Positions 20,282-59,769 of a stretch of DNA of 64,000 bases are shown one piece after another. Under the pieces are notes generated by a model. That model saw nothing but the letters and a program-made list of their open reading frames with translations. It ran no database searches and was not told where the DNA came from. The stretch comes from a virus. The position numbers and the translations under genes are program-made. Positions within the stretch are counted from its first letter, which is position 1; every line of letters begins with the position of its first letter. The stretch is taken from IMG/VR virus record IMGVR_UViG_3300032322_002195, positions 1 through 64,000 of that record. The stretch is one strand, 5' to 3'.

Positions 20282-20292
20282 AAAAAAAACAT

Positions 20293-20964: not shown

Positions 20965-20970
20965 TTAATT

Positions 20971-21615: not shown

Positions 21616-21649
21616 ATAACATAATAACAAAAATAAAAAGAAAAAACAG

Positions 21650-22860: not shown

Positions 22861-22867
22861 AATATAG

Positions 22868-25741: not shown

Positions 25742-26653
25742 ATGATAACAACAAATCTAACAGGTAATTTGGGTAACCACATGTGGCAATATGCTGTATG
25801 TAGAACCATAGCTGAAAAACTTGGATATGAATGGGGTATAAACCCAAGCCCAAGTCATGATTATTTTAATGGTAAAAGCCAAATGACGTTTATGAACGTT
25901 GATTTTGGTAAACCAGTTGAAGGTATAACAAAAGAATTCCATGAAACATGGAAAGTTTTTTCGCATGTTGACGATGTTAATATCACAATGCTAGACCCTA
26001 AACTATACGAAATAGAAGATAATTCAATTATGCTAGGTCATAATGGGGCCAAAGGAGGTATATACCAATCTGAAGATTACATCATAGATAGAAAAGAAGA
26101 TATTAAAAAATGGTTTGAAATTAAATCTGAATCCAAACAAACTTATGATAAAATATTAAGTGATATGGGGATTAGTTTGGATGAGAATTTATGTGTTATT
26201 AATTTTAGAGGTGGTGAGTACAGAAGCATACCTAATGTTTTACTAAGAAAAGAATATTGGAAAAACGCCATCAATCATATGTTAAATATTAACCCTAGTA
26301 TGAAATTTTTATTGATTACCGATGATGTACAATGTGCAAATAGCTTCATGCCTTTTCAAATTCAAGCAATACATGTAGATGTTGGTTTTGATTATTACGT
26401 TGTTAATCAAGCAAAATGGTTAATAATATCAAATTCAACATTTGGTTGGTGGGCAGCTTGGTTAAATGAAAAAGTTGAAAAAATAATTGCTCCTAAACAT
26501 TGGTCTAGACATAACGTTAGTGATGGTTATTGGGCGACTGGTGACGCTTACACCAGATGTTTCACATATATGGATAGAGAAGGTAATTTATCTGATTATG
26601 AAACGTGTAAAACTGAAGCAATAAATTATTATAAAAACAAAAACTTGATATGA
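25742..26653 (+). CDS. GT11-like glycosyltransferase with altered HxRRGD motif
   Basis: 303 residues. The start TNLTGNLGNHMWQYAVCRTIAEKLG and the late ISNSTFGWWAAWLN match GT11. Where alpha-1,2-fucosyltransferases have HxRRGD, this protein reads INFRGGEYR (about residues 159-167): the His and one Arg are replaced. Loss of these donor-binding residues suggests a different donor or reduced activity. It is longer than the 15522 paralogue by about 50 residues, mostly at the C-terminus. It is followed by a 4-base overlap with the GT17 gene. Confidence 0.82.
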   Translation: MITTNLTGNLGNHMWQYAVCRTIAEKLGYEWGINPSPSHDYFNGKSQMTFMNVDFGKPVEGITKEFHETWKVFSHVDDVNITMLDPKLYEIEDNSIMLGHNGAKGGIYQSEDYIIDRKEDIKKWFEIKSESKQTYDKILSDMGISLDENLCVINFRGGEYRSIPNVLLRKEYWKNAINHMLNINPSMKFLLITDDVQCANSFMPFQIQAIHVDVGFDYYVVNQAKWLIISNSTFGWWAAWLNEKVEKIIAPKHWSRHNVSDGYWATGDAYTRCFTYMDREGNLSDYETCKTEAINYYKNKNLI

Positions 26654-27510
26654 AAATATACGATGCTTTTCTATTCTTTAATGAATTAGAATTACTAGAG
26701 ATGAGAATGAATATTTTAAACGATGTTGTTGATTATTTTGTTGTTGTCGAATCAACAATAACATTTAGCTCTAAACCTAAACAATTATTATTTCATGAAA
26801 ACAGACACTTATTTGATAAGTTTAATGATAAGATAATCCATGTGATTATTGATGATTCACCAAATAGTTTTTTGAAAATAAATTATATTGATAACCCTAA
26901 AACTGATAGTGAAATATTAAAAAATAAAATTTTAAAACATGTTGATGAATCACCAAATTGGCCACGACATGAAAGTCAATGGGGTATTGAAACTTACCAA
27001 AGAGAATCAATAATTAAAGGGTTGGTTAATTGTAATGATGATGATATTGTTATTGTATCAGATGTAGATGAAATCCCAAATCCAATCGAAATAGAAAAAC
27101 TTAAAAATATTGGTTACGATGTTTTTAATTTTAATCAAAACATGTATTATTATTATGTAAACATGTTAAAAGAAAATAATTGGTCTGGTCCTAAAGCATG
27201 TTCATGGGGTAAATTAAAAACAATATCCTTAAATAGTTTAAGACAAAATAAACACACAACCAAAATGATATCTAATGGTGGTTGGCACTTTAGTTTTATG
27301 GGTGGTGAACATAAGGTAATTGAAAAAATTGAAGCTTATGCCCATCAAGAATTTAATAAACCATACTATAAAGAAAATGTTAGAAATAATATAATGTCAA
27401 ATAACGACCCTTTTTTTAGAGGTAGTCTAACACATGTAAGTATAGATGAAACATATCCTAAATATTTGCTAGAAAATTTAGAAAAATATAGTCATATGGT
27501 TAAAGAATAA
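26650..27510 (+). CDS. GT17 family glycosyltransferase
   Basis: 286 residues. The opening [20 protein letters not shown] and [10 protein letters not shown] are the GT17 signature (beta-1,4-mannosyl-glycoprotein N-acetylglucosaminyltransferase family). [24 protein letters not shown] (DVD metal motif) and [11 protein letters not shown] are also conserved. Bacterial and viral members are thought to add a GlcNAc-like sugar, but the acceptor is not known. It is the last intact gene of the sugar locus; the gmd remnant follows after 41 bases. Confidence 0.9.
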
Positions 27511-27903: not shown

Positions 27904-29814
27904 ATGGCTAAAAGGACAACCTCACCTAGAGTTAAAAAACAAGAAGTAGACATTTCAGACTTCGTTTCAAGTTTCAATAACGGACTTCTTTCAAATATCA
28001 AAATAGATATAAAACACAAAAACGAAACACAAAAGAAACTCACACAAGCTATTAAAAAGAATGATGTTATCATTTGTACTGGTCCTCCAGGATGCGGGAA
28101 AGCCCAAAGTATAGATTCATTGGTTTTAACACCTAACGGTTATGTTAAAATGGGTAATATCAATATAGGTGATTATGTTATTGGTATTGATGGGTTACCT
28201 ATAAAAGTTAATGGTGTATACCCACAAGGTGAAAAAGATATCTATTTGATAACTTTTTCAGATGGTACATCGACAGAATGTTGTGGCGAACATTTGTGGT
28301 TAACTCAAAATTATGAAGAACGAAATTACAGAAAAAGAGTAAGGACTAAAGAAAATCAAAGAATTAGAATTGGTAATAAGGGAAAAGAAGGTTCTGTTAG
28401 AAATACATTAGAAATAATGAATAATTTATTTGTGGGTATAAAATCAAAAAAAATAAATCATTCAATACCAATTGTAAAACCAATTAAATTTGAGAAAAAA
28501 CAAACTGATATTGACCCATATTTACTTGGTTGTTTATTAGGAGACGGTGGTTTTACAACAGCTAGTTTAAGTTTTACAACAAACGATTTAGAAATTGTAG
28601 AAATGTTAAAAAATAAAATGCCAGATAATCACATAATTAAAGAGAGATATGAACAAAATTATGTTATTAAATCTATTGGGGTTAAAGAAAATATAATAAC
28701 AACATATTTGCGAAAAGCTAATTTATTTGGGTTAAAATCAAATGAAAAATTCATACCAAAAGAATTTTTAATAAACGACATTGAAACTAGATTAGAAATT
28801 CTTAGAGGGTTATTAGATACTGATGGTTCTGTTCATAAACAAGCTGGAACCCCTTTATTTTATTCAACGTCTGAACAATTAATTAAAGATGTTACATTTA
28901 TCGTTCAATCATTAGGCGGTATTGTTACGAAAAAAGAAAAGATAGGTAAATATAAAAAATTAAATGGGGAAATAAAAGAATGTAAAAAAATTTATACATT
29001 ATATATAAACTTACCAAATGAATATATACCATTTAAACTAAAAAGAAAAATTAATTTATTAAAAAAAAGAACAAAATATCAACCTATTAGATATATTAAA
29101 AACATAACATTGGTTGGTAAAAAAGAAGCTCAGTGTATATCTGTAGATGATAAAAAACATTTATATTTAACCAATGATTGTATTGTAACACATAACACAT
29201 TTTTATCATGTGCTCAATCTCTATTTGAACTAAAAGAAAACGATAAAATACGTAAAATAGTTTTAGTCAAATCTGTCACAACACTTAAAACAGAAGAAAT
29301 AGGTTTTTTAAAAGGTACTTTAGAAGAAAAAATGGAACCATTTATTTTTTCTTTTATAAAAAATTTTGAAAAAATTATTGGTTCAGAAACAGTAGAAAAG
29401 TTAAAAAACGAAAAATTAATCGAAACCCTTCCAATTGCCTATATGAGGGGTATTAATATTGACAATGCAATAATTATTGTTGATGAAGCACAAAACATAA
29501 CTATTGAAAATATTAGGACTATTTTAACTAGATTAGGTGAGAATAGTAAAATGATTTTATTAGGTGATTTAAAACAAATAGACCAAAAAAATAAAAACAA
29601 TAGTGCGTTAAAATTTTTAATAGATAACTTTAAAAATATCGATAATATTGAAATTATTGAATTCGGAATTGAGGATGTGGTAAGACATCCGTTAATAAAA
29701 ATAATCGAACCAATTTTTGATTCGGTTAATGTTGATAAAAATAAAAAACCAAAAGAAATCGTTAAACCTAATAAAACAAATTGGTTGAAAAAAATATTTA
29801 GTGGTTTAAAATAA
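27904..29814 (+). CDS. PhoH-like P-loop ATPase interrupted by an intein
   Basis: 636 residues as translated; 271 after excision of a 365-residue intein (67-431). The extein is PhoH-like. Walker A reads GPPGCGK/T, split exactly between Lys66 and Thr432, with FLSCAQSLFELK following. Walker B is IIIVDEAQN, then TRLGENSKMILLGDLKQID. PhoH-like ATPases of phages are linked to RNA metabolism and phosphate stress, but the role is unproven. Because the insert breaks the P-loop, ATPase activity should depend on splicing. It stands alone between the gmd remnant and a 62-base gap. Confidence 0.88.
   Translation: MAKRTTSPRVKKQEVDISDFVSSFNNGLLSNIKIDIKHKNETQKKLTQAIKKNDVIICTGPPGCGKAQSIDSLVLTPNGYVKMGNINIGDYVIGIDGLPIKVNGVYPQGEKDIYLITFSDGTSTECCGEHLWLTQNYEERNYRKRVRTKENQRIRIGNKGKEGSVRNTLEIMNNLFVGIKSKKINHSIPIVKPIKFEKKQTDIDPYLLGCLLGDGGFTTASLSFTTNDLEIVEMLKNKMPDNHIIKERYEQNYVIKSIGVKENIITTYLRKANLFGLKSNEKFIPKEFLINDIETRLEILRGLLDTDGSVHKQAGTPLFYSTSEQLIKDVTFIVQSLGGIVTKKEKIGKYKKLNGEIKECKKIYTLYINLPNEYIPFKLKRKINLLKKRTKYQPIRYIKNITLVGKKEAQCISVDDKKHLYLTNDCIVTHNTFLSCAQSLFELKENDKIRKIVLVKSVTTLKTEEIGFLKGTLEEKMEPFIFSFIKNFEKIIGSETVEKLKNEKLIETLPIAYMRGINIDNAIIIVDEAQNITIENIRTILTRLGENSKMILLGDLKQIDQKNKNNSALKFLIDNFKNIDNIEIIEFGIEDVVRHPLIKIIEPIFDSVNVDKNKKPKEIVKPNKTNWLKKIFSGLK
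28102..29196 (+). mobile_element. class 3-type intein with LAGLIDADG endonuclease in the PhoH P-loop
   Basis: The insert begins at Ala67 (AQSIDSLVLTPNGYVKM) rather than Cys or Ser and ends at Asn431 (IVTHN), with Thr432 as +1. The marks of class 3 inteins are present: Trp in the block B segment GEHLWLT, Cys in the block F segment AQCISVDDKKHLYL, and Thr in the block G segment VTHN. In that class the block F Cys replaces the missing first nucleophile. Two endonuclease motifs, LLGCLLGDGG and LRGLLDTDGS, are present. It is distinct from the Cys1 intein at 5793. Confidence 0.87.
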
Positions 29815-40609: not shown

Positions 40610-42517
40610 TTATCTCAATTCAGCAACATTGAATGTAGGTACACCGTCTACTCTAACATGCCCGTAGAACCTGTTGTTTACGACCTTCTTAGCGTAACGA
40701 GTCATGATACCTTTAACTGGAGCAAAGTTGAAAGGATTGTACATAGTTGGTGTAAGTTGCAAAGGCACGTATGGTGCGTAGATGTAACCAGTATCCAACA
40801 ATGATTTACCTTTATGACCGATGATTACAGAGTAAGCTGGTGCATATGGGTCACGGAATACTTGATAACGTCCACCCAATGTACCGATTCTTTCGATACC
40901 CATGTTATATTGGTCTTGCTCAGGGTTAGCATCAGACACGTGGAAGTATTCTAAATCATCGAATACAGCTGAAATTTCAGAAGATACAACGATAAAGTTA
41001 GCACCACCACGAAGTGTTGATTTGTGGATTTGAGCAGAGATTTGGTTAATCTTAGTGATAAGAGTTTGGTTCCAGTCCTTTTGAGTGTAAGGGCTAGCAG
41101 CAGAAGAAGCTCTTCTCCATCCGTTGTAGTCCCAACGCAATTGCCATGCAGCAGCTTTACGAAGGTCTCTAAGGATTTCACGGTCAATTTCCGCAGCAAC
41201 TTGCTCTGACAACATAGCTGTCAATTCAGCTTCAGCGTCAATGTTGTGGAATGCACTAACATCTTGAGCCAATTCTGGTGACCAAGTAGCACGTAATTTT
41301 CTTTCTTCAACGGCAACAACAACTTCATCAAGTCTGAAAGAAACTTCATTCAATTCAGTTTCCAATTCTAGAGAAGCGTATTCAGCCCATGCAAATACAA
41401 AGTTATAAGCAGTAACAGCTGATACAGTTGAAGCTGAAGCACCTATATAACCATCATAAGTAGCTGTACCAGCAGCAGCAGCACCAGTTCCAGCAGTAGT
41501 ACCTACAGGGTGAGTCAAGTCAAGCTCAACATACATAACACCATTAGGAGTAGTCAATACAGGATAAGTTTGACCATTAGATGTAAAAGTATTTGTTGTT
41601 TGAACAATACCTTGACCGTATTTTTGAGTAACCAAACGGAATGGAACTTCTTGGTTAGCAGCGATAATGGTATTACCGTTAGCGTCAAGGATAGCATTTG
41701 TAGTTACGCAATGCAAAGAAGCTAAGAATGATTCAGTATCCATTACGTTACCATCAGGACCAGTCAATACTTCACGACCACCACCACTATTAGTTGGGTT
41801 GAAACCACTCATGCTAAACATAGCGTATCTCAATGAACCATCATTAGCAGTTGGGAAAGAAGTCGTTCCAGCAGGGCTTAGAACAACAAACTGACCATCT
41901 GAATTTAATCTAACAGCGTTGTTGTTAGCTAAAGTATAAGTTCTGATAGTAAGTGTACCTTTAGATTGGTCAAACATACCATCGTTGTAGAAAATATCAT
42001 ATAAGTTCTTAGCCATAAATGGAGTTGTAGCGCATGAACCATTAGCTGGAAGAACGCAAGATGGAATGCCAGTAGAAGCAAATGATGTGTGAGCTGAATA
42101 CTGAGTAAGATAAGTATCGTTAGTTGGGCTAGTACCAGCATAGTCATTACCAGCAACAGGAGGTGTAGAACCGTCTACACGGCTAGATGTAAGAGGTACG
42201 AAATAGAACAATTTACCGATAGGCATGTTCATAGCTTGAACAGACACGATGTCGTTAGCTAATAATTTAGAGAAAACACGTCTTACGATAGGGAATACTA
42301 CTGTTTCGAATGAACCAGAAGAAGTTGAAGTTGTAGTCTCAGTCAACAAAGTTGAAGCTTGGTTTTCATACAACTGAGCGATGTTTTCTTTTACGTGGCC
42401 TTTAAGACCTTCAAGGAAGCCTAAGCTTTCCCATTTTGATTGGGTTTCTTTACGGATAGCCTTCATGTGGTTTAATCCGATGTTACCCACTTGTCCAGAT
42501 GTTAATAAATGTGACAT
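40610..42517 (-). CDS. major capsid protein, gp23-like
   Basis: 635 residues. It forms the head shell. The gp23 core is plain: EERKLRATWSPELAQDVSAFH, AELTAMLSEQVAAEIDREIL, and at the end QLTPTMYNPFNFAPVKGIM followed by TRYAKKVVNNRFYGHV. The N-terminal 60 residues probably include a processed propeptide. A long insertion of beta type, about residues 105-360, is larger than in T4 gp23 (521 residues) and may be an insertion domain similar to gp24's. Base composition is richer in GC and codon use is more selected than in its neighbours, as expected for a very abundant protein. It follows the scaffold gene in transcription. Confidence 0.95.
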   Translation of the reverse strand: MSHLLTSGQVGNIGLNHMKAIRKETQSKWESLGFLEGLKGHVKENIAQLYENQASTLLTETTTSTSSGSFETVVFPIVRRVFSKLLANDIVSVQAMNMPIGKLFYFVPLTSSRVDGSTPPVAGNDYAGTSPTNDTYLTQYSAHTSFASTGIPSCVLPANGSCATTPFMAKNLYDIFYNDGMFDQSKGTLTIRTYTLANNNAVRLNSDGQFVVLSPAGTTSFPTANDGSLRYAMFSMSGFNPTNSGGGREVLTGPDGNVMDTESFLASLHCVTTNAILDANGNTIIAANQEVPFRLVTQKYGQGIVQTTNTFTSNGQTYPVLTTPNGVMYVELDLTHPVGTTAGTGAAAAGTATYDGYIGASASTVSAVTAYNFVFAWAEYASLELETELNEVSFRLDEVVVAVEERKLRATWSPELAQDVSAFHNIDAEAELTAMLSEQVAAEIDREILRDLRKAAAWQLRWDYNGWRRASSAASPYTQKDWNQTLITKINQISAQIHKSTLRGGANFIVVSSEISAVFDDLEYFHVSDANPEQDQYNMGIERIGTLGGRYQVFRDPYAPAYSVIIGHKGKSLLDTGYIYAPYVPLQLTPTMYNPFNFAPVKGIMTRYAKKVVNNRFYGHVRVDGVPTFNVAELR

Positions 42518-42547: not shown

Positions 42548-43864
42548 TTATTTGTTTTCAACTCTTTGAATCAAATCAAGGATTCTTTTAGTTGATGGGT
42601 CAACATAGGCAGTGCTTTCGTTTAATTGTTTAGAGCTGCCAGTGGTACCCTCTTTTATTATTTTTCTTTCTATTGCTTCAGTGATTGGCTTTCTAGAAGC
42701 TAATTCATTTGCAATAGTTCTGTATAACTTTTTAGACTCCTTAAGGTTTGTAACTCCTTCATCAAATCTTTTGATGATACTTTGTTTTTCAGCCTTGGTT
42801 GTCGCATGTTCCATAAACAATCTTGTTACGTAAGTCAAGTTGCTATTGAACACTACTGTTTCTACCAACTTTGTTCTAAATTCTTTTAAAGCTTTTCTAA
42901 ACTCTTCGTTTTCAGTTTTTAATTTTTTAGACTCAGTCAATAAAGTATTGTATTTTTTTGCAGTTTCAGAAACTAGTTTTTTAGCGATTACAGATTCTTT
43001 AAGATTATCAGCGCCAGCACCTTTAGGTTGACCTATGTTTGCTTTTCCTGGTAATCTATGAGCTTGACCAGAACCAACAGGGATGGCCTCTTCAATAGTT
43101 TCTTCCTCCTCGCCTTTTTCCTCTTCACCTTCTTCGTCATCTACATCAGATAAATCAGAAGGTTCACCTTCTTCATCATCCATTTCAATTTCGTAGTCTA
43201 CGTCATCACCACCTTCAATGTCATCAACATCAATGTCAACATCTTCAACATTACCAGCCATTTCATCATCCATGTCATCACCCATGTCTAGGTCTGAAGT
43301 TTTGATTACGTATTCTCCTGGTTCAGAGACAGTTAGGTGAATTTCGTCACCTACGATTTCGATTTCGTCATCACCGCTTAATTTTTTGTAAACTGCGATT
43401 ACGTCATCGTCAGACGCTTGGGTCATGTCCAATTCTTCTGATGCCATTGCATCCATTCCTTCTTCGTACATACCTTCTTCCATTTCTTCTTCGTACATAC
43501 CTTCGTACATACCTTCTTCCATTTCTTCTTCGTACATACCTTCTGTTGGCATTTCACCTTCGGTCATTTTTGATTCAGATTTGGTTTCTGATTTTTCTTT
43601 TTTCTCAGTACCACCTTTGCCATGTTCTTTCTTTTCCTCCGCTGGAGTTTCAGATTTCTCATGTTCTTCATGTGATACTTCGTTTAAAGAGTCTTCAACC
43701 TCTTCTTCCACATAAGCCTCTTTAGTTAGAGACTCTTTCACCACACCATCAATTTCTTCTTTAGCTACGCTACGAAGTATTTCTTTAGTGTTGGCATTGA
43801 GAGCACTTTGAATATTTTTAATATCCAAAAGAGCTTCTTCAAGTATTGATTTTTTGTCTGCCAT
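42548..43864 (-). CDS. prohead core scaffold, gp22-like
   Basis: 438 residues, highly acidic. Residues 1-60 and about 290-438 are coiled coil, and the middle is an acidic, disordered stretch containing tandem copies of MYEEEMEEG near residues 108-135. Length and position between the protease and the capsid gene match T4 gp22, which fills the prohead and is then destroyed by gp21. 'LLTESKKLK' and 'QLNESTAY' look like protease-site candidates, but that is a guess. It has a weaker late-type box upstream (43893-43900). Confidence 0.82.
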   Translation of the reverse strand: MADKKSILEEALLDIKNIQSALNANTKEILRSVAKEEIDGVVKESLTKEAYVEEEVEDSLNEVSHEEHEKSETPAEEKKEHGKGGTEKKEKSETKSESKMTEGEMPTEGMYEEEMEEGMYEGMYEEEMEEGMYEEGMDAMASEELDMTQASDDDVIAVYKKLSGDDEIEIVGDEIHLTVSEPGEYVIKTSDLDMGDDMDDEMAGNVEDVDIDVDDIEGGDDVDYEIEMDDEEGEPSDLSDVDDEEGEEEKGEEEETIEEAIPVGSGQAHRLPGKANIGQPKGAGADNLKESVIAKKLVSETAKKYNTLLTESKKLKTENEEFRKALKEFRTKLVETVVFNSNLTYVTRLFMEHATTKAEKQSIIKRFDEGVTNLKESKKLYRTIANELASRKPITEAIERKIIKEGTTGSSKQLNESTAYVDPSTKRILDLIQRVENK

Positions 43865-43983: not shown

Positions 43984-44706
43984 TTATTCTGATAAAAAAT
44001 TGTCTAATTTATCTTTTAAGCTTTCTTTAATTATACTAGATTTTTTTTCGATGCTTTCAACATAAGGTTTAGCTTCAGTCACATCTCTAAAAATCCAAGC
44101 GTCTGGTGTTGATGGTGCTGTAACAACATCCCAACAAATTATTTCAAAATCATCTTGAACAATTTGTTCACCACTTTTTCCCTCTTTAAGAGAACCAACA
44201 CCTCTAGATGAAACACCAATTTTAATTCTATTTCTTAAAAGATTCGCAACTTCATCACCTTTGGTGGAAACGATACCATAGTTTATAAAACCAGGTGTCA
44301 TCAGAATTTCCATTTTACCCATAAGAGTTTTACCTTCCCACCATGTTTCAATAATATTGTGTGAAATTCTATCACCAGCGATAATGCTAGATTCTGGATG
44401 GTCTAATTCACCAACCGCACTACGTTCTCTAATAGCTTTTTGGTATATTTCGTTTTGTTTTTTTAAAACTTGTTCTGGATATACCCTACCATTACGATTA
44501 AGAACACCGTATTTTTGTAAAATAACATAAACTACCAAAGGTTCTGCTATTATTATTTTTCCGCTGTCAAGTTTTTTTATTTCATTTATGAACGCTTGGT
44601 TCCTAGGTTCATCAGGACTAATATAACCAGCGTCATGTTCGATTAAATAACCGAAGCCAGTTTCTCCACGTCTAAGCGTTTTTATTTTATTATAATTTAT
44701 ATCCAT
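43984..44706 (-). CDS. prohead core protease, gp21-like
   Basis: 240 residues, close to T4 gp21 (212). It cuts scaffold and capsid propeptides during head maturation. The family marks are NRNGRVYP near residue 70, GELDHPES with His103, and IGVSSRGVGSL with Ser167 as the probable nucleophile. WDVVTAPSTPDA follows. A late-type box sits 17 bases before the ATG, and a terminator separates it from the gene upstream. Confidence 0.93.
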   Translation of the reverse strand: MDINYNKIKTLRRGETGFGYLIEHDAGYISPDEPRNQAFINEIKKLDSGKIIIAEPLVVYVILQKYGVLNRNGRVYPEQVLKKQNEIYQKAIRERSAVGELDHPESSIIAGDRISHNIIETWWEGKTLMGKMEILMTPGFINYGIVSTKGDEVANLLRNRIKIGVSSRGVGSLKEGKSGEQIVQDDFEIICWDVVTAPSTPDAWIFRDVTEAKPYVESIEKKSSIIKESLKDKLDNFLSE

Positions 44707-45837: not shown

Positions 45838-46629
45838 TTAATTTTCTTTTAAAGTATTCTTAAGGTCTATAATTTTAGAAATATTTTTTATAAAATCCTC
45901 GTTTATTTCTTGTTTATCATTTAATAATCTGTCTTTAACCCTTAAAAGTTTGTCTTTTGTTTCTAAATCAGAACCATCTAGTTTCTCATTAATCAAATCA
46001 ATACACTCTCTTACAACTTTACCATAAACCTCTTTTTTCTGTTCATCAGTAGATTCGATTATAACTTTAAGAATTTGTTTTTCTGATTTATCCAAAGTGC
46101 TGTATTTTTGATTGTATTTCTCGACCATGATAGTAGTCAACATACTATTAGGTAATTCTATACTTTCAGAAATTACTTTTTCTTTGTTATTTACGATATA
46201 ATCAATTATTTTGCTAGTTGCTTCAACAATCACATCAATATTCTCTGGAGATTTACTTGTGAATATAAGAGTAGAAATACTTTCATAAAGTTCTTTTTTA
46301 TCGTCTAGTACATCTTTTTCAAATAAAAGATTTTGCACCAATTTTGAATTTGCTTCAAATATTTCTTTTTTATCGTATTTAGAAAACAAATCAATATTTT
46401 CTTTTACAAACATATTAGCTTTATTGATATCTTTTTCTACTTTTTGCTCAATGTTGGTGTAAACTAAAAATTGAGTTTTAAGTATCTCGTTTTCTTTTAA
46501 AGACTTAACATAGTTTTTAAACAAGTCTTTTTTTGGCTTATCCTCTGACATAACGCTTTCGGCCAAAAGTGTGTTATAAACACTTTTTATGTGACCAAAA
46601 TTTTTTGTTATTTGACTTAAATTTGTCAT
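45838..46629 (-). CDS. hypothetical helical protein of the head module
   Basis: 263 residues, almost all helix, with repeated Lys/Glu heptads. The start SQITKNFGHIKSVYNTLLAESV resembles the start of scaffold-type proteins. It lies between portal and protease genes, where T4 carries small prohead-core genes (gp67, gp68), so a prohead-core or head-completion role is possible. A late-type box precedes it by 15 bases. Confidence 0.65.
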   Translation of the reverse strand: MTNLSQITKNFGHIKSVYNTLLAESVMSEDKPKKDLFKNYVKSLKENEILKTQFLVYTNIEQKVEKDINKANMFVKENIDLFSKYDKKEIFEANSKLVQNLLFEKDVLDDKKELYESISTLIFTSKSPENIDVIVEATSKIIDYIVNNKEKVISESIELPNSMLTTIMVEKYNQKYSTLDKSEKQILKVIIESTDEQKKEVYGKVVRECIDLINEKLDGSDLETKDKLLRVKDRLLNDKQEINEDFIKNISKIIDLKNTLKEN

Positions 46630-46674: not shown

Positions 46675-48759
46675 TTATTCTCCTAACATTTTATCGATTC
46701 CATTTATCATGTCATCAACATCTTTGTTTATTTTTACGTTTTTGTCGTAAATTTTTACTCTTTCGTTAATTTCTTTTTTTATCGGGTTTATAGATTCTAG
46801 CAAAGCATCAACAAATCTACCTTGATAATGTTTGGTTCTATCATCTAACTTTTTAGCTAACATTTTTTTCTGTTCTTTCAATATTTTATTAACCTTTTTA
46901 ACAGATTCAGTTACTTCAGTTGGAGCAGCCTCTTCAGCTCCAGCCTCTGTACCAGCTTCTTCAGCTCCAGCTATTTCAGCACCTGTTTCGGCTTCACCCC
47001 CAGCTTCGGTAGCGGCTTCACTTTCACCACCTTCTTCACCACCAAAATCTAAGTCTTCACCACCTACTCCTCCACCACCAAAAGAGCCACCTAATCCTCC
47101 ACCACCGCCAGTTGAACCACCAGATTCACCTTCAGCCCCACCAGCAGCCTCACCACCTTCTCCACTACCACCTTTAAGTGCTAATTTAAAATCACCGTAA
47201 ACTCTATCCACGATATCAAACATACCAGTATGTTTGATAACATTTGCTGAATTGGCCAATTCAGCAGCAGCAGCTTTTTCAAGCCTTTGTTCTAACAAAT
47301 CTTTTTTGATTTCATCATCAGACATACCAAGAACATCTCTTTTTGCACGAGTCATTGACATCGCAGCAAAGCCATTACCAGCATCAGAAACTGCGTCTTT
47401 ATAAAGAGTAACTTTGCTTTGTAAGTGTTCTACTTTAAGCATTTCTGCTTGAGTAGATGGATTATTAAGAGTAAGTGTAAAGTTATCAAAATCTTCGTCA
47501 AAACCTAACAAATACAAATGAATAATAGCTATCTTATTAAGTTCTTGAAGCATTGATTGTTGTATGCGATTAATAGTCCTTGAAAAACGTATATCTTGCA
47601 ATGCAAGGTTTTTACCTTCACCAGCTGTCTCATCAAAACCTAAAAATGGTTTTGGAACACGCAAAGCAGTGAATAGATTATTCCTCAAATATTCAATATC
47701 AGCAATTTGGTCCAAGTTAGAAGCACCAGGAAGTGTATCAATTGGATTTGGTGCATCTTCAGTACGAACAGGGATGAAAAAATCTTGGTCATTTGATAAC
47801 TGATTGTATCTAAGGTCCATTTGACCAGTTTGTGGGTCGGTAATTGGAATTCGTTTAAACCTATCAGCTATTTCATTTACATATGCTGGTACGTCTGCGT
47901 CTTCAATATTACCAACATATATTTTATAAACACGTCTTTCTGGTGCACGAGTAACACGATATACCAACATAGAGTCTTCTGATAAAATAAGTTGTTTCCA
48001 AATACGTCTGGCTTTCTCTAACATACTCGTACCATAAGGCAAACGTCTATCATCACCAGTTAATCTAAAGTGAGCTATTTGCCAAGAATTAAATTCAACA
48101 TCACGACCTCTCCAATAAAATTTTACTTTATCAGCAACCGCAACATTTCCGTTTGGTGTTTCTCTACCAGTAATCATATCAAACAAACCGCTTTCCCTTC
48201 TTTCCATTTCATAGTTTGGCATTTGTTTTCCGCCAGTTACTCCGTGAACATCATCAATATTTAAAAACACAAAGTTATCACCATATTTTACAGTATTCCT
48301 TGTCCACATTGGTAACGATGTATGTATATCTAATCTATTAAAAAATAAATCTTCTAATATCCCCTTAACACGACTACTATCAGAATAAACATTCAATACT
48401 TTTCCCTTGTCATTAAGAGTTGTTGATTCTTCAGCCATTATATCTAATGCAGCAGCAATAATTGGATAAAACTCCATAGCCTCAAAATCTGAGTAAGAAC
48501 CAATACGAGTTGTTTCATAGTTTATTGATTGTTGAAAAAGTCCGCTCTCAACCTTTTTCCACATCTGAGACAAATACTTGTTTTGTTGCGCTTGCAACTT
48601 AGCTCTTTCAAAATCAACTTTATTATCTGTTTTAAGCAACACATCGTTACCCATATTGTAACGTTGTGGTTGTGGTTGACTTTGGTTTAGTTTTGCTGAA
48701 TCAGGACCTAATATTTGTCCCAATCTTTGAAATATAGTTAAATTTTTATTTTCTGCCAT
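46675..48759 (-). CDS. portal protein, gp20-like
   Basis: 694 residues. It forms the dodecameric DNA entry vertex. RIGSYSDFEAMEFYPIIAAAL, DIMAEESTTLNDKGKVLNVYS, LPMWTRNTVKYGDNFVFLNI and FRLTGDDRRLPYGTSML are gp20 marks. Residues about 530-615 are a low-complexity Gly/Glu/Ala insertion (GGGGGLGGSFGGGG, EDLDFGGEEG) not present in T4 gp20 (524 residues), followed by a helical tail. The insertion is probably flexible and could be a scaffold contact. The segment LDFGGEEG recurs in the 55518 gene. Confidence 0.93.
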   Translation of the reverse strand: MAENKNLTIFQRLGQILGPDSAKLNQSQPQPQRYNMGNDVLLKTDNKVDFERAKLQAQQNKYLSQMWKKVESGLFQQSINYETTRIGSYSDFEAMEFYPIIAAALDIMAEESTTLNDKGKVLNVYSDSSRVKGILEDLFFNRLDIHTSLPMWTRNTVKYGDNFVFLNIDDVHGVTGGKQMPNYEMERRESGLFDMITGRETPNGNVAVADKVKFYWRGRDVEFNSWQIAHFRLTGDDRRLPYGTSMLEKARRIWKQLILSEDSMLVYRVTRAPERRVYKIYVGNIEDADVPAYVNEIADRFKRIPITDPQTGQMDLRYNQLSNDQDFFIPVRTEDAPNPIDTLPGASNLDQIADIEYLRNNLFTALRVPKPFLGFDETAGEGKNLALQDIRFSRTINRIQQSMLQELNKIAIIHLYLLGFDEDFDNFTLTLNNPSTQAEMLKVEHLQSKVTLYKDAVSDAGNGFAAMSMTRAKRDVLGMSDDEIKKDLLEQRLEKAAAAELANSANVIKHTGMFDIVDRVYGDFKLALKGGSGEGGEAAGGAEGESGGSTGGGGGLGGSFGGGGVGGEDLDFGGEEGGESEAATEAGGEAETGAEIAGAEEAGTEAGAEEAAPTEVTESVKKVNKILKEQKKMLAKKLDDRTKHYQGRFVDALLESINPIKKEINERVKIYDKNVKINKDVDDMINGIDKMLGE

Positions 48760-49050: not shown

Positions 49051-50832
49051 TTATTTCATTCCATTAAATAACCACATGTATTGACCTAAAGGGTCTTGCA
49101 TATTTTTAGAAATAGCTGGGTTAAATTTAGGTTTTGGCGTTGTCGCCTTATTTCTGTTTTCTTTGCTAACAAAACTACCAGAAGCTGGTTCTTCTTTTAC
49201 CGATGGTGAACCAACCACCCAACTACTTAGCATAGCTTTGTTTTGTTTTTCTAATCTTTCTAGATTTTTAAAAGAATGTTCTACAACCCATAAACACATA
49301 GCCATTGCCATTAGCAAATCGTCATGATAACCATCCATGTGGTCTGGTCTACCATTTTTGTAAATAAATGTTTTCATCTCAGATGTCATTCTAACCGAAC
49401 GAATTTTAACAGCGTCCGTTCTAATTTTAAATTCTAAGTTTGAAATCATTGGTAGACGAACTGATGTTGCGTGAAAACCTGGTATTTTATTATCTTTATT
49501 ATAACTAGTTAATTCTCTTTGTTTAGAAGATAAAACTTTTCCATTTTGGCTATCATAGTGTAATCTTTTATAATTAAATTCTAGTAATTTAAGAATAGTT
49601 GAAACACCCATACCACCAGTTGCATCCACCACAGTGTAAGCCTTGTATAAATTTCCATATTCTTCAACAATTTGAGCCAATAAATCTGGTTGTATCTTTC
49701 CTTGATATTCTACGACTTGCTCCATGGTTGTAAAATCCAATATAACCATTGTTGAAGAATCCTCTCCATCACCTCTGGATACGTCCACACCCATTATGTA
49801 TTGATGTCCCTCTTGTGGCTCATCCCAAATCCATATTTCACCCTCTGGGCCAGCGGTATATAACGGTTCTCTTACGTTGTTTTTGTTTTGGAATTCAATG
49901 TGTTCTTCGTCAATAACGTTACCACCTGAACCAATGAAAGACACGTCCAATTCTTGTGCAATCATCTTAGCATCATTATTCATACCACGACACATTTCTT
50001 CATACCATGAAGATGTTGGTTTCCAACCTCCCAAAATTCTTTTTTCGTAAGAATTAAAAGTAAATTCAACCTCATCTTCTGTCACTTCATCTTTGACCCA
50101 ACGTAAATCTTTATTGTAACGCAAGTCTTCATACCATTTCATTTCAATAATATTGAAATTGTTTTCCTTTTTCCTAGCTTGGTCATATGTTTTGTAATAA
50201 AGTGCGTCCATACCACGAGGTGTTGATATAAGAGTTGCTTTGCCACCAGTACCCAAAGCCGTCAAAGCAGCACCAAATACTTCGGCACCATTATCAATAT
50301 ATGCGGCTTCATCCATAACTAAGTAAGTTGGAGTGAAACCACGCAACGCATCTTTAGATGTAGCAACCGCTTTTACACGACTACCATTAGGTAATTTTAT
50401 TTCTTTTTTAGAGTCAGTAAGGAATATTGACTTTTCTTCATTTTTTTGATTACCATAGTATTCAGAACCCCAAACCCATCTTGGTAATTGAGAAACAAAC
50501 TCTTTAATTTTTGCCAAAAATTCAAACGCCAACTCTTGTTTGTTGGCAATGATAAGAACAGCTTCTGGGTTTTCAGCATCAGCAAAACCAACCTTTATTG
50601 CCATATAAGCTGCCGTTGTCGTTGATACCCCAGCCTGTCTTGGTTTTGTGATTAAATTAAACCTATGCTTTTCATAAGCATAGATTATTTCTTTTTGTCT
50701 TGGGAATAGCTTAAACGGTACAAACCCTTCTTGAGTTTTATCAAATGTTTCCAAATAAGTCTCAATACCATATATCGGACTTGTTAAACATTTGGCATAT
50801 TCTTTAAATATTTCTGTTTTTGTTAATAGCAT
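49051..50832 (-). CDS. terminase large subunit, gp17-like
   Basis: 593 residues, near T4 gp17 (610). It powers and cuts DNA during packaging. Walker A at 62-71 reads TKPRQAGVST, Walker B is YLVMDEAAYI with Asp174-Glu175, and STPRGMDALY gives the coupling motif. The nuclease domain is seen as MGVDVSRGDGEDSST, VVDATGGMGVS and DGYHDDLLMAMAM. The C-terminal 60 residues are disordered, with a tail LGQYMWLFNGMK. A late-type box lies 11 bases upstream. Confidence 0.96.
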   Translation of the reverse strand: MLLTKTEIFKEYAKCLTSPIYGIETYLETFDKTQEGFVPFKLFPRQKEIIYAYEKHRFNLITKPRQAGVSTTTAAYMAIKVGFADAENPEAVLIIANKQELAFEFLAKIKEFVSQLPRWVWGSEYYGNQKNEEKSIFLTDSKKEIKLPNGSRVKAVATSKDALRGFTPTYLVMDEAAYIDNGAEVFGAALTALGTGGKATLISTPRGMDALYYKTYDQARKKENNFNIIEMKWYEDLRYNKDLRWVKDEVTEDEVEFTFNSYEKRILGGWKPTSSWYEEMCRGMNNDAKMIAQELDVSFIGSGGNVIDEEHIEFQNKNNVREPLYTAGPEGEIWIWDEPQEGHQYIMGVDVSRGDGEDSSTMVILDFTTMEQVVEYQGKIQPDLLAQIVEEYGNLYKAYTVVDATGGMGVSTILKLLEFNYKRLHYDSQNGKVLSSKQRELTSYNKDNKIPGFHATSVRLPMISNLEFKIRTDAVKIRSVRMTSEMKTFIYKNGRPDHMDGYHDDLLMAMAMCLWVVEHSFKNLERLEKQNKAMLSSWVVGSPSVKEEPASGSFVSKENRNKATTPKPKFNPAISKNMQDPLGQYMWLFNGMK

Positions 50833-53078: not shown

Positions 53079-53475
53079 GATATTGTTGGTTATAATTTAA
53101 TATTAGGTCTTTTTCATATAACTTTTCTTCAACTTCTTTTATTTTTTCTCCAAATTTAAAACAAAGTCTTTTTTCTGGATATGAGTCATAAGCATTAATG
53201 TTTTCCCATGCCAATGCAATAACACCATCAACAGCATCCCATACGGCAAATGTGTCACTGTTTTGAATAACATCTAATTTTAATTCAGACTCCAAACGTC
53301 CAACTTTTTTAATAAAATTGTCATGAGGGGCTTGTGGTCTACCAGAAGCTGGAAAAGTATCCCATTCTTCACCATCAATATTTTTACTTGTATCTGAAAA
53401 TATAAATTCAAACAAGTAATTACCTTGATAGTTTTTGCCAACCATGTTAACATATATGAGATACAAATCTTTCAT
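53062..53475 (-). CDS. hypothetical protein
   Basis: 137 residues. DLYLIYVNMVGKNYQGNYLFEFIF and DGEEWDTFPASGRPQAPHD at the start, later DTFAVWDAVDGVIALAWE. It looks like a compact alpha/beta domain; conserved Trp and Asp suggest a real fold. It overlaps both neighbours in the operon (1 base upstream, 17 bases downstream). Function unknown. Confidence 0.65.
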   Translation of the reverse strand: MKDLYLIYVNMVGKNYQGNYLFEFIFSDTSKNIDGEEWDTFPASGRPQAPHDNFIKKVGRLESELKLDVIQNSDTFAVWDAVDGVIALAWENINAYDSYPEKRLCFKFGEKIKEVEEKLYEKDLILNYNQQYHGETK

Positions 53476-55061
53476 TATTTTTCAGCTTTTGGGTCTGGTT
53501 GAACGTTAGGCATTGGAAGAAAAGGTTTATTTTTTCTACTTGGTATGTTTGGTTCACTAGGTTTGGTTTCAGGTGTTACTTTAGGTTTGACAACTGGTTC
53601 AATAGTAGGCTCTATCATAATATCATCTTCTCTGAATGTTTCTCTTAACATATTTTTAATAATGTTTTTAGGTTCAAATATACTTAAATTTTCTGATATA
53701 GACAAGTTCTCGTTGCTCTTTTTCCCCCAACTTTTACCTTTTTTAGGTGTACCACATGCTGAAGGTGTTGGCCTACAAGCTGGATATTTTCTATTTTCAC
53801 CTTCTTTTCTACCACAAGGTTTGCATTTTTTCCTACCAGTTTTCTCATCTGTTCTACATGTGTTGCAATCTACCCAACCTTGTGATTTTCCTTCACCACC
53901 TTGTCTAGAAAACCACCCATGAAGACCCTGTTCTTTTTCTTTAGAAAAATCAGTCTTTTTAGACTCATTCATTTTTTCATCTTTGGCTAAAAATGCATCA
54001 ATCCACGCTTGCAATTCATGAACATCTGGCGCATATTCCTTTCCCTTTTTTCTAGTGATAGCACTATGAGCCAAATTAATTAATTCTTTGGTGTATTCTT
54101 CAGATTCATTTGTTTTTTTTCTACCTTGACAATGTGCTCTTTGGCTAAATCCTTTTGGATTGTTGCAATCTATGCTTCTTTTGTATTTTTCAGACCATTT
54201 TTCTTCAATTGAGGCTTCTTTCAAAACAGAGATATCGTCATAATCTGAATTTAAAATTTTTATTTGTGTGTTTTTAGCAATTACATTATGTTTATCATCA
54301 ACATAAATAAAAGGACTAGTCCATAAAATTAAATCCCCTAAATACATCACCATTTGGAAATGATTTGTTGGATTTTTAGATTTATTTTTAAACTCCACTT
54401 CTTCAACCCCACCAACTAAATCATTTGATATCTGATATAATAAATGACGAGCCACGTTTTCATTTATATCAGCCAAATTATCATCATAGTCAATTTTCCA
54501 CATAGGAATCCACTCTGTTTTCATTCTTTCATTGAATTTTTTGAATGGGATTTTATATGATTTTATTTTTTCAATTATTCCTTTTATTGTTTCATCTTCA
54601 GACTCATTGGTTTTATTTCCCCAATTAGCAGCACCGACCTTACGACATTGAACTAGCGAACCTGAACCGTAGGCACTTGGCCATACATCATATCTAGCTC
54701 TAACTTTATAATAACAAGCGTCTTTTTTACCTTTTTTCTTTTTTCCTTCTTCAATTGCTTCATAAACAACCAAATCATCATCAAACTTTGTTTCAATAAT
54801 TTCCACCATCAAATCACCAGAACCCTTAATAACTCTATGAAAAGTATTCTTAGGAATAAAAAATTCTTCATTAACATTTAATTTTTTTGGTAACTCATTG
54901 TCAAATTGTACCAACCAATCGTTTTCATTTAAAGGAATTACAATTCTGTCTTCTTTATCACGATGCCATACCAATTCATCACTTTCAACAAGATTTGAGA
55001 AAGTTCTTCTAATCACATTACCATTTTTTTCTTCACTATATGGTTTCATATTACTTTTCAT
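53475..55061 (-). CDS. cupin plus Cys-module virion-associated protein
   Basis: 528 residues built of recognisable parts. Residues about 15-95 are a cupin-like barrel (ELVWHRDKEDRIVIPLNEN, FIPKNTFHRVIKGSGDL). At about 112-145 is a small basic module ACYYKVRARYDVWPSAYGSG followed by LVQCRKVGAANWG. At about 370-445 comes a second module with repeated Cys (GLHGWFSRQGGEGKSQGW, CNTCRTDEKTGRKKCKPCG, YPACRPTPSACG). The C-terminus is Pro-rich. The two Cys modules recur in proteins of other T4-like and jumbo phages, as far as I recall. It lies in the virion operon and overlaps both neighbours. Confidence 0.72.
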   Translation of the reverse strand: MKSNMKPYSEEKNGNVIRRTFSNLVESDELVWHRDKEDRIVIPLNENDWLVQFDNELPKKLNVNEEFFIPKNTFHRVIKGSGDLMVEIIETKFDDDLVVYEAIEEGKKKKGKKDACYYKVRARYDVWPSAYGSGSLVQCRKVGAANWGNKTNESEDETIKGIIEKIKSYKIPFKKFNERMKTEWIPMWKIDYDDNLADINENVARHLLYQISNDLVGGVEEVEFKNKSKNPTNHFQMVMYLGDLILWTSPFIYVDDKHNVIAKNTQIKILNSDYDDISVLKEASIEEKWSEKYKRSIDCNNPKGFSQRAHCQGRKKTNESEEYTKELINLAHSAITRKKGKEYAPDVHELQAWIDAFLAKDEKMNESKKTDFSKEKEQGLHGWFSRQGGEGKSQGWVDCNTCRTDEKTGRKKCKPCGRKEGENRKYPACRPTPSACGTPKKGKSWGKKSNENLSISENLSIFEPKNIIKNMLRETFREDDIMIEPTIEPVVKPKVTPETKPSEPNIPSRKNKPFLPMPNVQPDPKAEK

Positions 55062-55517: not shown

Positions 55518-57059
55518 TTACCACCATGTACCACCACCAGCTAAACCTAATGATTTAGCATATCTTGGTAAACGACATGCCCAGTAGCCTGGAGATGTTC
55601 TATCAGTCTTTGAAGGACAGTTATGTCTATCAGAAAAAGCTTTTCTAGCTTTAGGGTCTCTTAATTTAACAGCCAAGTTACCACCACCAGATTTAGCACC
55701 GAAAGAAACTTTTTTAATGTTACCAGACTGAGGGTCTCTTACATAAACATAAAATTTCTTTGAACCACCTCTTTTAGGTTTACCTAGTTGAACTTTTTTA
55801 CCTTTGTACTTGGCTTCATTTAAAGTTCTATTATTCTCATAATTTTTTAAATCGCCAATAACAACATGTTTACCGTTTTCAGCATTATATTTAACTATAA
55901 GCGTTTCATTCCCTTTATCATCATCACCTATAAAATAGTTTACATTATCATTGCTCAAACTAAAATATAAATTTCTACCATAATCGTCTTCTTCACCTGT
56001 CATTACTTTATCCCCAGACGCTGATTCGATAGCTGATTTAATCCAGTCAAAACTCTCCTCAAACTCTTCATAAATAAAGTTCATTTTTATCTTCTTACCT
56101 TCAATTATGATATATTGATTATCAAATTCGTTAACAATAAAACCATCATTCTCATTAAGTTTGATTAAACCTTTTGAATATAAAGCTTTAACTTCTTTAA
56201 TTAAATTGAAAAATTTTTCAGAACCAATTCTATATATCGTTTCATTCAAAGGTATTTCATTTTCAATATGGTATTTTAAATCATCTGAAATTGGTGTTTC
56301 TGTATGCAATTCCATTGGTGCCGACCATTCATCTTCTGAATCTACGTGATAATCGTTCAATCTACCCTCAATAAAGTGATAAACTTCTTCAACATCATCA
56401 GCTGAAGTCGCTATGTGGTCCAAAGCCCAACCATGTCCATCTGATAATAAAGCATCAACCTCATCATAATTCATTTTTAATAATTCACCAGCAGCGTGAT
56501 GGATTGTTTTTAGATTTTGCCAAAACATGTAATTGTTTGATTCTCTTTCAATTGGATTGTGTGTTTTTTGATATTCAGCCTCTTCGCTACCTTCTGGCGC
56601 AAATATGCTTAATTTTTTAGGGTTTATTGTCATCATATTTTCTTCAATCCCCTCTTCTCCACCAAAATCTAAATTTTCATCATCCGATGGCTCTTCTGCT
56701 GGTTGCTCATCATCCATAGGCTCTTCCGCTGGTTGTTCATCATCCATAGGCTCTTCTGCTGGTTGCTCAGATGACATATCATCATCTTTACCAGAAGATT
56801 TAACTTTATTAATAATGTCTTTTTGGTCTTCAGCATCCATTTCAGACGTATGGGTAGCTGATAATAACGAGTTAATTGCAAATTTTTCTAATTCAAAATC
56901 TGGTTGACCTTGTTCCTCATTATATTTTCTGAGTGATTGACCTAACTTTCCAGTTAGTTGTTGGATAAATTTCTTTGGGTCTGATTCCTCGTCTGCCTCA
57001 ACACCAGCATCAAATGGCTCATCATCAAATGGTTTATCATTTGATTTAGGTTGCTCCAT
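55518..57059 (-). CDS. acidic virion-associated protein, probably the second half of a frameshifted product
   Basis: 513 residues from the ATG at 57059. The frame, however, stays open upstream to 57221 with coding-like sequence (KLPASSQPDVEASVEEPAE and PAEA repeats) and no start codon. It contains three tandem copies of EQPAEEPMDD near residues 98-127 and LDFGGEEG. A C-terminal basic module follows (KKFYVYVRDPQSGNIKKVSF, KARKAFSDRHNCPSKTD, SPGYWACRLPRYAKSLGL) ending in GGGTWW. The module is a Cys-containing type seen in other large phages. Translation may come from the A10 slip site at 57206-57220. Confidence 0.75.
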   Translation of the reverse strand: MEQPKSNDKPFDDEPFDAGVEADEESDPKKFIQQLTGKLGQSLRKYNEEQGQPDFELEKFAINSLLSATHTSEMDAEDQKDIINKVKSSGKDDDMSSEQPAEEPMDDEQPAEEPMDDEQPAEEPSDDENLDFGGEEGIEENMMTINPKKLSIFAPEGSEEAEYQKTHNPIERESNNYMFWQNLKTIHHAAGELLKMNYDEVDALLSDGHGWALDHIATSADDVEEVYHFIEGRLNDYHVDSEDEWSAPMELHTETPISDDLKYHIENEIPLNETIYRIGSEKFFNLIKEVKALYSKGLIKLNENDGFIVNEFDNQYIIIEGKKIKMNFIYEEFEESFDWIKSAIESASGDKVMTGEEDDYGRNLYFSLSNDNVNYFIGDDDKGNETLIVKYNAENGKHVVIGDLKNYENNRTLNEAKYKGKKVQLGKPKRGGSKKFYVYVRDPQSGNIKKVSFGAKSGGGNLAVKLRDPKARKAFSDRHNCPSKTDRTSPGYWACRLPRYAKSLGLAGGGTWW

Positions 57060-57202
57060 AGGGGCGCTATCAACAGATGCTGGCTCTTCAGCTGGGGCTT
57101 CAGCTGGGGCTTCAGCTGGTTCTTCAACTGAAGCCTCTACATCTGGTTGACTAGACGCTGGTAACTTTAATTTGTATTTTGTTTCTTCGTCTAAATTACT
57201 TT

Positions 57203-58111
57203 TTAGACTTTTTTTTTTACTTCACCTTCGGTAAGTCTATCAATGATTGCGTCCATATTTTTAAGTGCGTTAAAAATACTTAGTTTGGATTCTTTAACCT
57301 CACTTTTTTTTGCACCAGCAATCTTATCAGCGTAAGTAATTTTGTCTTTTGGTTCAGCTAAAGCTGCAAATTCTTTTTCTTTTGCAGTCATTTCTTCGCC
57401 TTCTCCCATATCAATCATCTCATCAATAGCTTTTTCAGCTTCAGTCATTTCAACCTCATCCATATAAGCTTCTTCATACATAGATTCATACATAGATTCG
57501 TCCATTGCTTCATCCATCCCATTTTTTTTCTTAACGTCCATTACACATGCTTCATACTTGTCTTTGTTTTCTCTACCAACACTAGCTGTGCAAATAGCCC
57601 ATGGATTATTTTTCTTTTTTGCCTCATCCATATACATTTCATCCATAGGGGTGTTTTCTTCCAAATTTCCATGACCTGTAAACCCATTGCCTTTCATTTC
57701 AGAAAAACCACCAGCCATAGGCATGTTTTCAGTCAAAAGATTGTCATTTAAAAAAACATTTATTTCACCATCATAGTTATACGCTTCAGCAAGACTTCTG
57801 AACTTAAGATTCAAATGCTTTATAGCTTTTGCGTAAGAAGGATAAGCTTCTTGTTTTTTATTTTGTAAACCGCCAATATACTTGAAATCTTCAGCAACCA
57901 AATTTTTGATTTTATCAGATTTTTTAATATACCATTCGTGGTTTTCTCTTACAATAGCATAAGCATTCCCATCTGGTCCAACCTTTGTCAATTCCACTAC
58001 GATATTAGATTTGTTTTCATTGATTGGTTTTATCCCCATCAATTGTTTCATACGCTCATTTATTTCATGACCCTTTAACCCTATTGGATTAATTAGTATA
58101 TTTTTTTTCAT
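57203..58111 (-). CDS. acidic virion-associated protein with a Cys module, upstream half of the frameshift pair
   Basis: 302 residues. Helical start (LKGHEINERMKQLMG), then a beta part. A Cys module KKNNPWAICTASVGRENKDK, YEACVMDVKKKNG at about residues 160-195 resembles the small 'PWAICTASVG' domain of other phage proteins. The repeat MDESMYESMYEEAYMDE follows. The frame ends at TAA 57203 right after an A10 run, while the downstream frame is open through the same run. It heads the operon that runs to 50912. Confidence 0.78.
   Translation of the reverse strand: MKKNILINPIGLKGHEINERMKQLMGIKPINENKSNIVVELTKVGPDGNAYAIVRENHEWYIKKSDKIKNLVAEDFKYIGGLQNKKQEAYPSYAKAIKHLNLKFRSLAEAYNYDGEINVFLNDNLLTENMPMAGGFSEMKGNGFTGHGNLEENTPMDEMYMDEAKKKNNPWAICTASVGRENKDKYEACVMDVKKKNGMDEAMDESMYESMYEEAYMDEVEMTEAEKAIDEMIDMGEGEEMTAKEKEFAALAEPKDKITYADKIAGAKKSEVKESKLSIFNALKNMDAIIDRLTEGEVKKKV
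57206..57220 (-). promoter_or_regulatory. putative -1 ribosomal frameshift (slippery) site
   Basis: On the minus strand the sequence is GTA, ten A, then GTC TAA in the upstream frame. Slipping back one base at the A run gives AGT CTA and continues in the open frame of the next gene for over 560 codons. The A AAA AAA G core resembles known -1 slip sites. Polymerase slippage at A10 would give the same product. Confidence 0.6.
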
Positions 58112-58533: not shown

Positions 58534-59769
58534 TTAATTAGATAAAGGTAAATTTATTTTTGGGTGAGATTTATAATTTTCAAGGGTAAAATCTGTATTA
58601 TCTAAATGTGTTATTAAACTTAAATCCTCAGTTAACGATTTGAAAAAGGAATCCGTTTTACCAAAAATCAATTTTGGTAGTGGGTATGGTTCTCTAGTTC
58701 TTTTCGGAACGTTCAAATTATCAAATAAATCATGTGACGGAAAAGTTACGTTTAATAAACGTTTAGTGTCTTTTTCGTTTATTTCATACATCCGTTCAAT
58801 TCGCTCATCCAAAGTCAACTTCCTACCAATCTGTTCTTTTAACCCGTCTATATGATTTAAATATATATGACAATCACCTAAATTACCAATTAATTCGTCA
58901 GGAACCATGTTTACCATCTTCGCAATTATTTCTAATAGCAAACCATAACTAGCTATATTAAAAGGTAGACCAAGACCTGTATCCACTGAACGTTGATTCC
59001 ACATTAAAGAGATTGCTCTAGTTGGAATTTCACAATCATTCATTATTTTAATGTTCAAATCTTTTATATATGAATTTGTTTCAGTTCTAAAATTCTTAGT
59101 ATTGGGTTTAAATATATCGCATCTTTCTTCATAACTCAACTCTCTTGTATAAAATTGAAAAAAGTTATGACAAGGTGGAAGTACGCATTGGTCTAATTCT
59201 CCAACATTCCAAGCTGATACAAGAAGTCTCCTAGAATCTGGGTTTGTTTTAATTTCATTGATTAGGTTTGCGATTTGGTCTATCGAATATTCGTCATAGA
59301 CTCCATTCACTTTTGTATTACTCTCGTAACCAGTCCAATTTCTCCACTGCTTACCATAAATTGGACCTAATTCACCCCACTTTTTAGCAAACTCATCATC
59401 TGTTTTGATTTTGTTGATGAACTCTTCTTGAGATAACGGATTGATATAAATAGGTCCTTCACCAATAGGTTTCCAATTATTAAACCAATTCTTATATGCG
59501 TCACCCACCCAAATAGTATTACCTTGTTCTAACAACCATTTTAAATCAGTTCTACCTTGTAAAAACCAAAGCAACTCAGTTACTACTGATTTGAAATGAA
59601 TTTTCTTGGTTGTAAGCAATGGAAAGCCATCTTTCATAGAATGTCTTATCTGTCTACCGAATACAGATAGAGTGTCACCATTTCTTGTTTCTTTTTTAGT
59701 ACCATTATCAAGAATGTCTTGACATAGTGCTAAATAATCTTTATCTAATTTATTATTCATAACTTCCAT
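58534..59769 (-). CDS. thyA: thymidylate synthase with insertions
   Basis: 411 residues against about 264 for E. coli ThyA. It makes dTMP from dUMP with methylene-tetrahydrofolate. Conserved parts: SVFGRQIRHSMKDGFPLLTTKK, ELLWFLQGRTD, LGPIYGKQWRNW, the catalytic Cys200 in VLPPCHNFFQFY, and NQRSVDTGLGLPFNIASYG and DCHIYLNHIDGL. Extra segments lie at about 104-130 (PLSQEEFINKIKTDDEFAKKW) and about 209-245 (ELSYEERCDIF onwards). Similar pieces occur in the 136-residue neighbour at 59997. An in-frame second ATG at 59760 is an alternative start. With dut it forms a dTTP supply route. Confidence 0.95.
   Translation of the reverse strand: MEVMNNKLDKDYLALCQDILDNGTKKETRNGDTLSVFGRQIRHSMKDGFPLLTTKKIHFKSVVTELLWFLQGRTDLKWLLEQGNTIWVGDAYKNWFNNWKPIGEGPIYINPLSQEEFINKIKTDDEFAKKWGELGPIYGKQWRNWTGYESNTKVNGVYDEYSIDQIANLINEIKTNPDSRRLLVSAWNVGELDQCVLPPCHNFFQFYTRELSYEERCDIFKPNTKNFRTETNSYIKDLNIKIMNDCEIPTRAISLMWNQRSVDTGLGLPFNIASYGLLLEIIAKMVNMVPDELIGNLGDCHIYLNHIDGLKEQIGRKLTLDERIERMYEINEKDTKRLLNVTFPSHDLFDNLNVPKRTREPYPLPKLIFGKTDSFFKSLTEDLSLITHLDNTDFTLENYKSHPKINLPLSN

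Follow-up and report, generated by a model that had tools for sequence, protein, structure and literature searches.

Comparative evidence for conserved −1 recoding at an A10 run between two head-region genes of uncultured tailed phages

Introduction

Programmed slippage at an A run, giving a short and a long product, has been proven by experiment for several genes of bacterial chromosomes or plasmids. These include Citrobacter rodentium tssM1 (A11), Shigella spa13 (A10) and Thermus dnaX (A9), with Thermus dnaX and Citrobacter tssM documenting two length variants from slippage at A9–A11 (PMC1088944, PMC4256274); both forms of tssM1 are needed where this was tested, and no adjacent signals for programmed ribosomal frameshifting (PRF) are reported for it. 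With E. coli polymerase, slippage is undetectable below eight A. At A runs insertion is commoner than deletion, and the documented cases of slippage in enterobacteria have runs of at least 9 A or T (PMC6260861). For the two-ORF dnaX genes with 10 A's in the GeneTack study, which are again cellular genes, transcriptional realignment was deduced from sequence (PMC3711429). Among tailed dsDNA phages, lambda gpG/gpGT and the T3/T7-type coat extensions are morphogenesis genes that give a short and a −1-extended form, in these cases by −1 ribosomal frameshifting at short slippery heptamers. In the T4 head operon the terminase, portal, protease and major head protein genes lie on the same strand, and the T4 prohead protease recognizes L/I-x-E motifs; T4 is not known to have a frameshifted pair of this kind.

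The phage gene pair described here, P1–P2, resembles each of these systems in part. Like tssM1, spa13 and dnaX it is predicted to yield a short and a long product, and slippage is proposed for it from its sequence; like the GeneTack dnaX genes, to which it is unrelated, it has a −1 register at a conserved A10. It shares with the lambda and T3/T7 genes the extension of a phage gene in the −1 direction, but it has a length-conserved A10 in place of a heptamer, and those are different genes at a different genome place, with no homology to P1 or P2 by the searches made. With T4 it shares the head genes on the same strand, a T4-type protease and L/I-x-E motifs, which occur in P1. No earlier description of a P1–P2 recoding pair was found in the literature searched. 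P1–P2 is, on comparative grounds, a new instance of real, conserved and programmed recoding in a new protein family, the kind of mechanism being already known.

Results and Discussion

The window analysed is a stretch of 64,000 nucleotides, positions 1–64,000 of an IMG/VR virus record of 108,837 bases, and its relevant features are collected in Table 1. At the junction the minus strand reads GAA GGT GAA GTA AAA AAA AAA GTC TAA. The earlier note had described a P1 frame ending just past ten A, and a long −1 frame through the same run without a start codon before 57059; both descriptions are accurate, the run being exactly 10 A with TAA 3 nt later, the −1 frame having 562–566 codons by counting point, and its first ATG, GTG or TTG being ATG 57059. 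Because the −1 frame is blocked by a stop 3 nt ahead of the run and open beyond it to 55521, and the frame-0 stop follows the run, the switch of frame is confined to 57221–57205, little more than the run itself. The predicted fusion, ...VKKKSLK..., comprises 301 + 563 = 864 aa. The C-terminal module of P2 is found without the rest of P2 in Pelagibacter, Methylophilales and Flavobacterium phages. Only one further run of at least 10 A occurs in the 64-kb window (20280–20289); it begins inside the stop codon of one gene, directly ahead of the next ATG.

Table 1. Features of the P1–P2 locus and its surroundings
Feature	Coordinates	Strand	Basis or remark
P1, frame-0 ORF, 302 aa; short product and N-terminal part of the predicted fusion	57203..58111	−	ATG 58111 to TAA 57203–57205; relatives
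A10 slippery run (T10 on the + strand), putative recoding site	57209..57218	−	exactly 10 A; A9–A12 in all 89 junctions
Frame-0 TAA stop, 3 nt past the run	57203..57205	−	stop proximity enriched
P2, −1 frame, 562–566 codons by counting point; C-terminal part of the predicted fusion	55518..57221	−	open to 55521
KYKLK codons, AAATACAAATTAAAG, −1 frame, ahead of any start codon	57165..57179	−	conserved; hairpin anchor in relatives
Most conserved P2 domain (KPFDDEPFDAGVEADEE..FIQQLTGKLGQSLRKY..DIINKVK)	56780..57035 (approximate limits)	−	family alignment
P2 C-terminal module (PHROG 7595)	55521..55820 (approximate start)	−	common to Pelagibacter, Methylophilales, Flavobacterium phages
Places homologous to the KYKLK hairpin	L007:4846–4899, L134:4028–4081, L199:4963–5016		examples
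Large terminase, downstream of the pair	49051..50832	−	context
Portal protein	46675..48759	−	context
T4-type head maturation (prohead) protease	43984..44706	−	context
Major head protein	40610..42517	−	context

Scans of IMG/VR, for which P1, P2 and their alignments served as queries, found 208 loci that contain the P2 domain; these represent 94 distinct sites, and at 89 of them the stored DNA covers both halves. P1 was found in none of the cultured phages of the collection. The −1 register is present in all 89 distinct junctions, and an in-frame fusion, a +1 register or a separate start in the same frame in none of them. The run is A10 in 80 junctions, A9 in 6, A11 in 2 and A12 in 1, with a minimum of 9. 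On a tree of 85 junctions the phase or the length of the run changes at least eight times, the −1 register and at least nine A always being retained, and in the sisters L012 (A10) and L013 (A11) the runs stand in different phase. A shift register conserved throughout the homologues (89/89) is what programmed −1 recoding predicts. The frame-0 stop lies at most 24 nt past the run in the 89 junctions, mostly at 3 or 15 nt; measured from a point 2 nt short of the end of the run, its distance has a median of 5, vs a mean of 52 at random P2 places. The earlier note had proposed that a −1 shift at the A10 run joins the two halves and that normal reading yields the short form, and had suggested asking whether orthologues have one ORF or two; they have two frames in −1 register at every junction, which strongly supports the proposal. 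In one clade (L039, L055, L059, L062, L063, L065, L073 and kin) an extra segment, ..DGMSTGLF.DEE.GY.., separates the run from KYKLK; an in-frame ATG is often present in it, yet an A10–A12 run and the −1 register are retained there as well.

Codon usage indicates what is conserved at the run. Its frame-0 lysine codons are AAA in 264 cases and AAG in 4, the latter confined to codons in which the run comes to its end, whereas the three conserved lysines of KYKLK, just downstream, are written AAG in 9/78, 48/69 and 62/78 cases. In the remainder of the P1 and P2 genes of 42 junctions AAA makes up 78% of the lysine codons, and A9 encodes one of the 38 other KKK stretches. These counts come from related, non-independent sequences, so that no single probability is given for them. 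Since the downstream lysines vary between AAA and AAG and those of the run do not, the run is kept as a homopolymer and not for its lysines. Recoding at the run, its −1 direction and selection on the homopolymer are in this way borne out by comparison of the relatives. Slippage would call for nucleotide-level selection on an A or T homopolymer of about nine or more, and a minimum of 9, a mode of 10 and the lack of any AAG interruption match this; they also fit the known behaviour of bacterial polymerases and so favour slippage.

We consider transcriptional slippage, with RNA polymerase adding an A, the probable source of the fusion, and infer the polymerase rather than the ribosome to be the agent. 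Unaltered mRNA would be read to the nearby stop and give P1, of 302 aa. In a fraction of the transcripts the polymerase would shift the pairing of the growing RNA with the ten template T's and insert an extra A, and translation of the A11 mRNA (...VKKK-SLKSNL...) would enter the −1 frame and give the 864-aa P1–P2 fusion. The ratio of P1 to P1–P2 would be set by run length, which is our proposed reason why the run stays at 9–12 and is nearly always 10. The uniform direction counts against slippage: shifts in both directions, which GeneTack looks for, are not seen, with +1 at 0/89, and in the GeneTack study a direction that never varies is read as pointing to ribosomal frameshifting (PMC3711429). 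One inserted A leads exactly to the −1 frame, however, so that an insertion bias can account for a uniform direction as well. Proximity of a stop in the +1 frame was considered as a further sign of slippage and discarded as uninformative, because +1-frame stops are dense anyway.

The main rival, possible though distinctly the less favoured of the two, is programmed −1 ribosomal frameshifting, in which the ribosome, with tRNA-Lys on AAA AAA, would move back by one base and so produce the P1–P2 fusion from unaltered mRNA; the protein products of the two routes are identical. The uniform −1 direction in 89/89 speaks for it by the criterion of PMC3711429, as do the in-frame A_AAA_AAA heptamer, of the X_XXY_YYZ form, in every run, the frame-0 stop close behind the run, and the standing of ribosomal frameshifting as the usual route in phage tail and coat genes (PMC5009743). 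The clade of the window's own phage further has an SD-like AGGTGA upstream of the run and a 7-bp hairpin (GTCTAAA..TTTAGAC) abutting it. Seven bases would suffice for such a shift, yet no run is shorter than 9, and wherever the run takes up the whole of the final lysine codon, that codon is never AAG, even though A_AAA_AAG is the classical strong site. Nor is a stimulator kept at the right spacing across the family: the zone at +3 to +9 past the run is unstructured in the relatives (median MFE −2.4), SD-like matches near the run do not exceed the same-gene background in the family, and candidates for either element are confined to the window's own clade. Stimulation by an SD-like element therefore finds no support for the family, given these background-level matches and the phage's own start codons, which make no use of SD pairing.

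The sole hairpin that is conserved comes after the KYKLK codons, at a distance from the run that ranges from 28 to >100 nt. It is stable in 37 divergent relatives (mean MFE −11.0, mean z −2.71, t −6.6, for a 33-nt window starting 6 nt before the end of KYKLK, against synonymous-codon shuffles; near zero elsewhere), is selected at synonymous sites, and is weak in the window's phage. Given its variable distance it goes with KYKLK rather than with the slip site, so that it is no classical stimulator, and the apparent structure signal that had suggested a downstream stimulator is this hairpin. RNAalifold on a gapped MAFFT alignment gave no consensus structure, and Rfam returned no match at the gathering threshold for three related loci. 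We put at an even chance the composite proposition that programmed slippage at an A10 of conserved length governs the ratio of two head proteins in a widespread lineage of T4-type phages, which have in addition a conserved downstream mRNA hairpin.

If there were no recoding, P1 and P2 would be two genes and P2 would start internally, at ATG 57059 or at a non-standard start. This is very unlikely. ATG 57059 does exist, and in many relatives the frame contains an ATG, GTG or TTG, be it at an earlier or a later point. But the −1 frame between the run and the ATG encodes KKKSL..E.TKYKLK, conserved across the P1–P2 family, and in 14/79 relatives no ATG, GTG or TTG precedes the conserved GKLGQSLR domain. 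Coding in the second frame thus begins before any start codon, as expected of programmed −1 recoding. An internal start would also leave the conserved A10 and the invariant −1 register unexplained. A start at 57059 was rejected on account of the conserved coding upstream of it; the earlier note had held that a fusion would be unnecessary if related phages had an ATG and RBS at 57059 and lacked conservation upstream, and the presence of that conservation, with the startless relatives, upholds the fusion. The sequencing indel that the note had offered, or an assembly error or a phase-variable tract caught in its off state, is scarcely credible and is excluded as a general explanation. Homopolymers are prone to such changes, but random ones would leave about 1/3 of the junctions in frame, and 89 distinct junctions from many separate assemblies, with runs of A9–A12, share one out-of-frame register and include none in frame.

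We conclude from these comparisons that programmed recoding would yield P1 together with a P1–P2 fusion, of 864 aa in this phage. Of the three explanations that the earlier note had left side by side, the sequencing indel falls away, and polymerase slippage is favoured over ribosomal frameshifting. Its picture of one long Cys-module protein holds as regards the fusion, but the Cys module of P1 is missing from many orthologues.

The P1–P2 pair lies upstream of the terminase, portal, prohead protease and major head genes on the same strand. P1 contains five L/I-x-E[ANGS] motifs vs 1.3 expected (p 0.016), and most P1 orthologues have such a motif near residue 32; P2 shows no such enrichment (4 vs 2.3, p 0.2). 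Neighbours of 528 aa, 263 aa and 438 aa are enriched too. The enriched proteins of the head cluster, at 42548–43864, 45838–46629, 53475–55061 and 57203–58111 (−), have the character expected of prohead-protease substrates. In P1 a motif content above chance is thus combined with a prohead protease encoded in the same operon, and position in the head region and motif enrichment together make it probably a head or core protein. P1 and P1–P2 would then probably be head proteins, of the core or the interior, that are trimmed by the prohead protease, and our best guess is a core or internal head protein that is partly extended by P2. The term "virion genes", used for the pair in the earlier note, is likely to be right in view of this head context.

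Searches for function gave little. P1 and P2 had no match in Pfam; in PHROG P1 had none and P2 matched only an unnamed PHROG, at its C-terminus; neither matched a tail-chaperone PHROG, and the pair lies near the terminase. PDB and PDB-fold searches returned nothing usable for the function of either. The structure models are of low confidence (pLDDT 62 and 57), and the significant viral fold matches, few in number, are to proteins without a name.

As to the host, no relatives were found in bacterial or archaeal genomes, a Bacteroidota promoter motif was not above chance, and T9SS-like neighbours were not confirmed. Start codons across the window show no Shine-Dalgarno signal, SD pairing being weaker than at random sites, and the leaders are A-rich with A at −3; such SD-less starts and A-rich leaders recall Bacteroidota hosts. 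Elsewhere in the window, 27904–29814 (+) encodes a 636-aa protein with a PhoH-like C-terminus, the N-terminal part of which matches terminase large-subunit and helicase-loader PHROGs, matches that may reflect only shared P-loop features. The thymidylate synthase ORF at 58534–59769 (−), of 411 aa, matches models in two or three pieces, and an insertion in it is possible. Glycosyltransferase-like and sugar-metabolism-like genes (e.g. Glyco_transf_11 at 15522) occupy 10414–27510 (+), an extent unusual for a phage.

Conclusions

Read by start and stop codons alone, the locus gives two ORFs, and a long protein of which both halves are well conserved is missed. The group comprises many uncultured tailed phages, and judged by their sequences, in all of which the run is kept, it is a genuine genetic switch rather than an error of sequencing. 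The members of the group provide about 90 naturally occurring versions of a single recoding site, at which slippage and ribosomal frameshifting are separable at the RNA level. If slippage is the true mechanism, the phage would tune the assembly of its particle through the error rate of RNA polymerase, and P1–P2 would be a tailed-phage morphogenesis switch run by polymerase errors and not by ribosomes.
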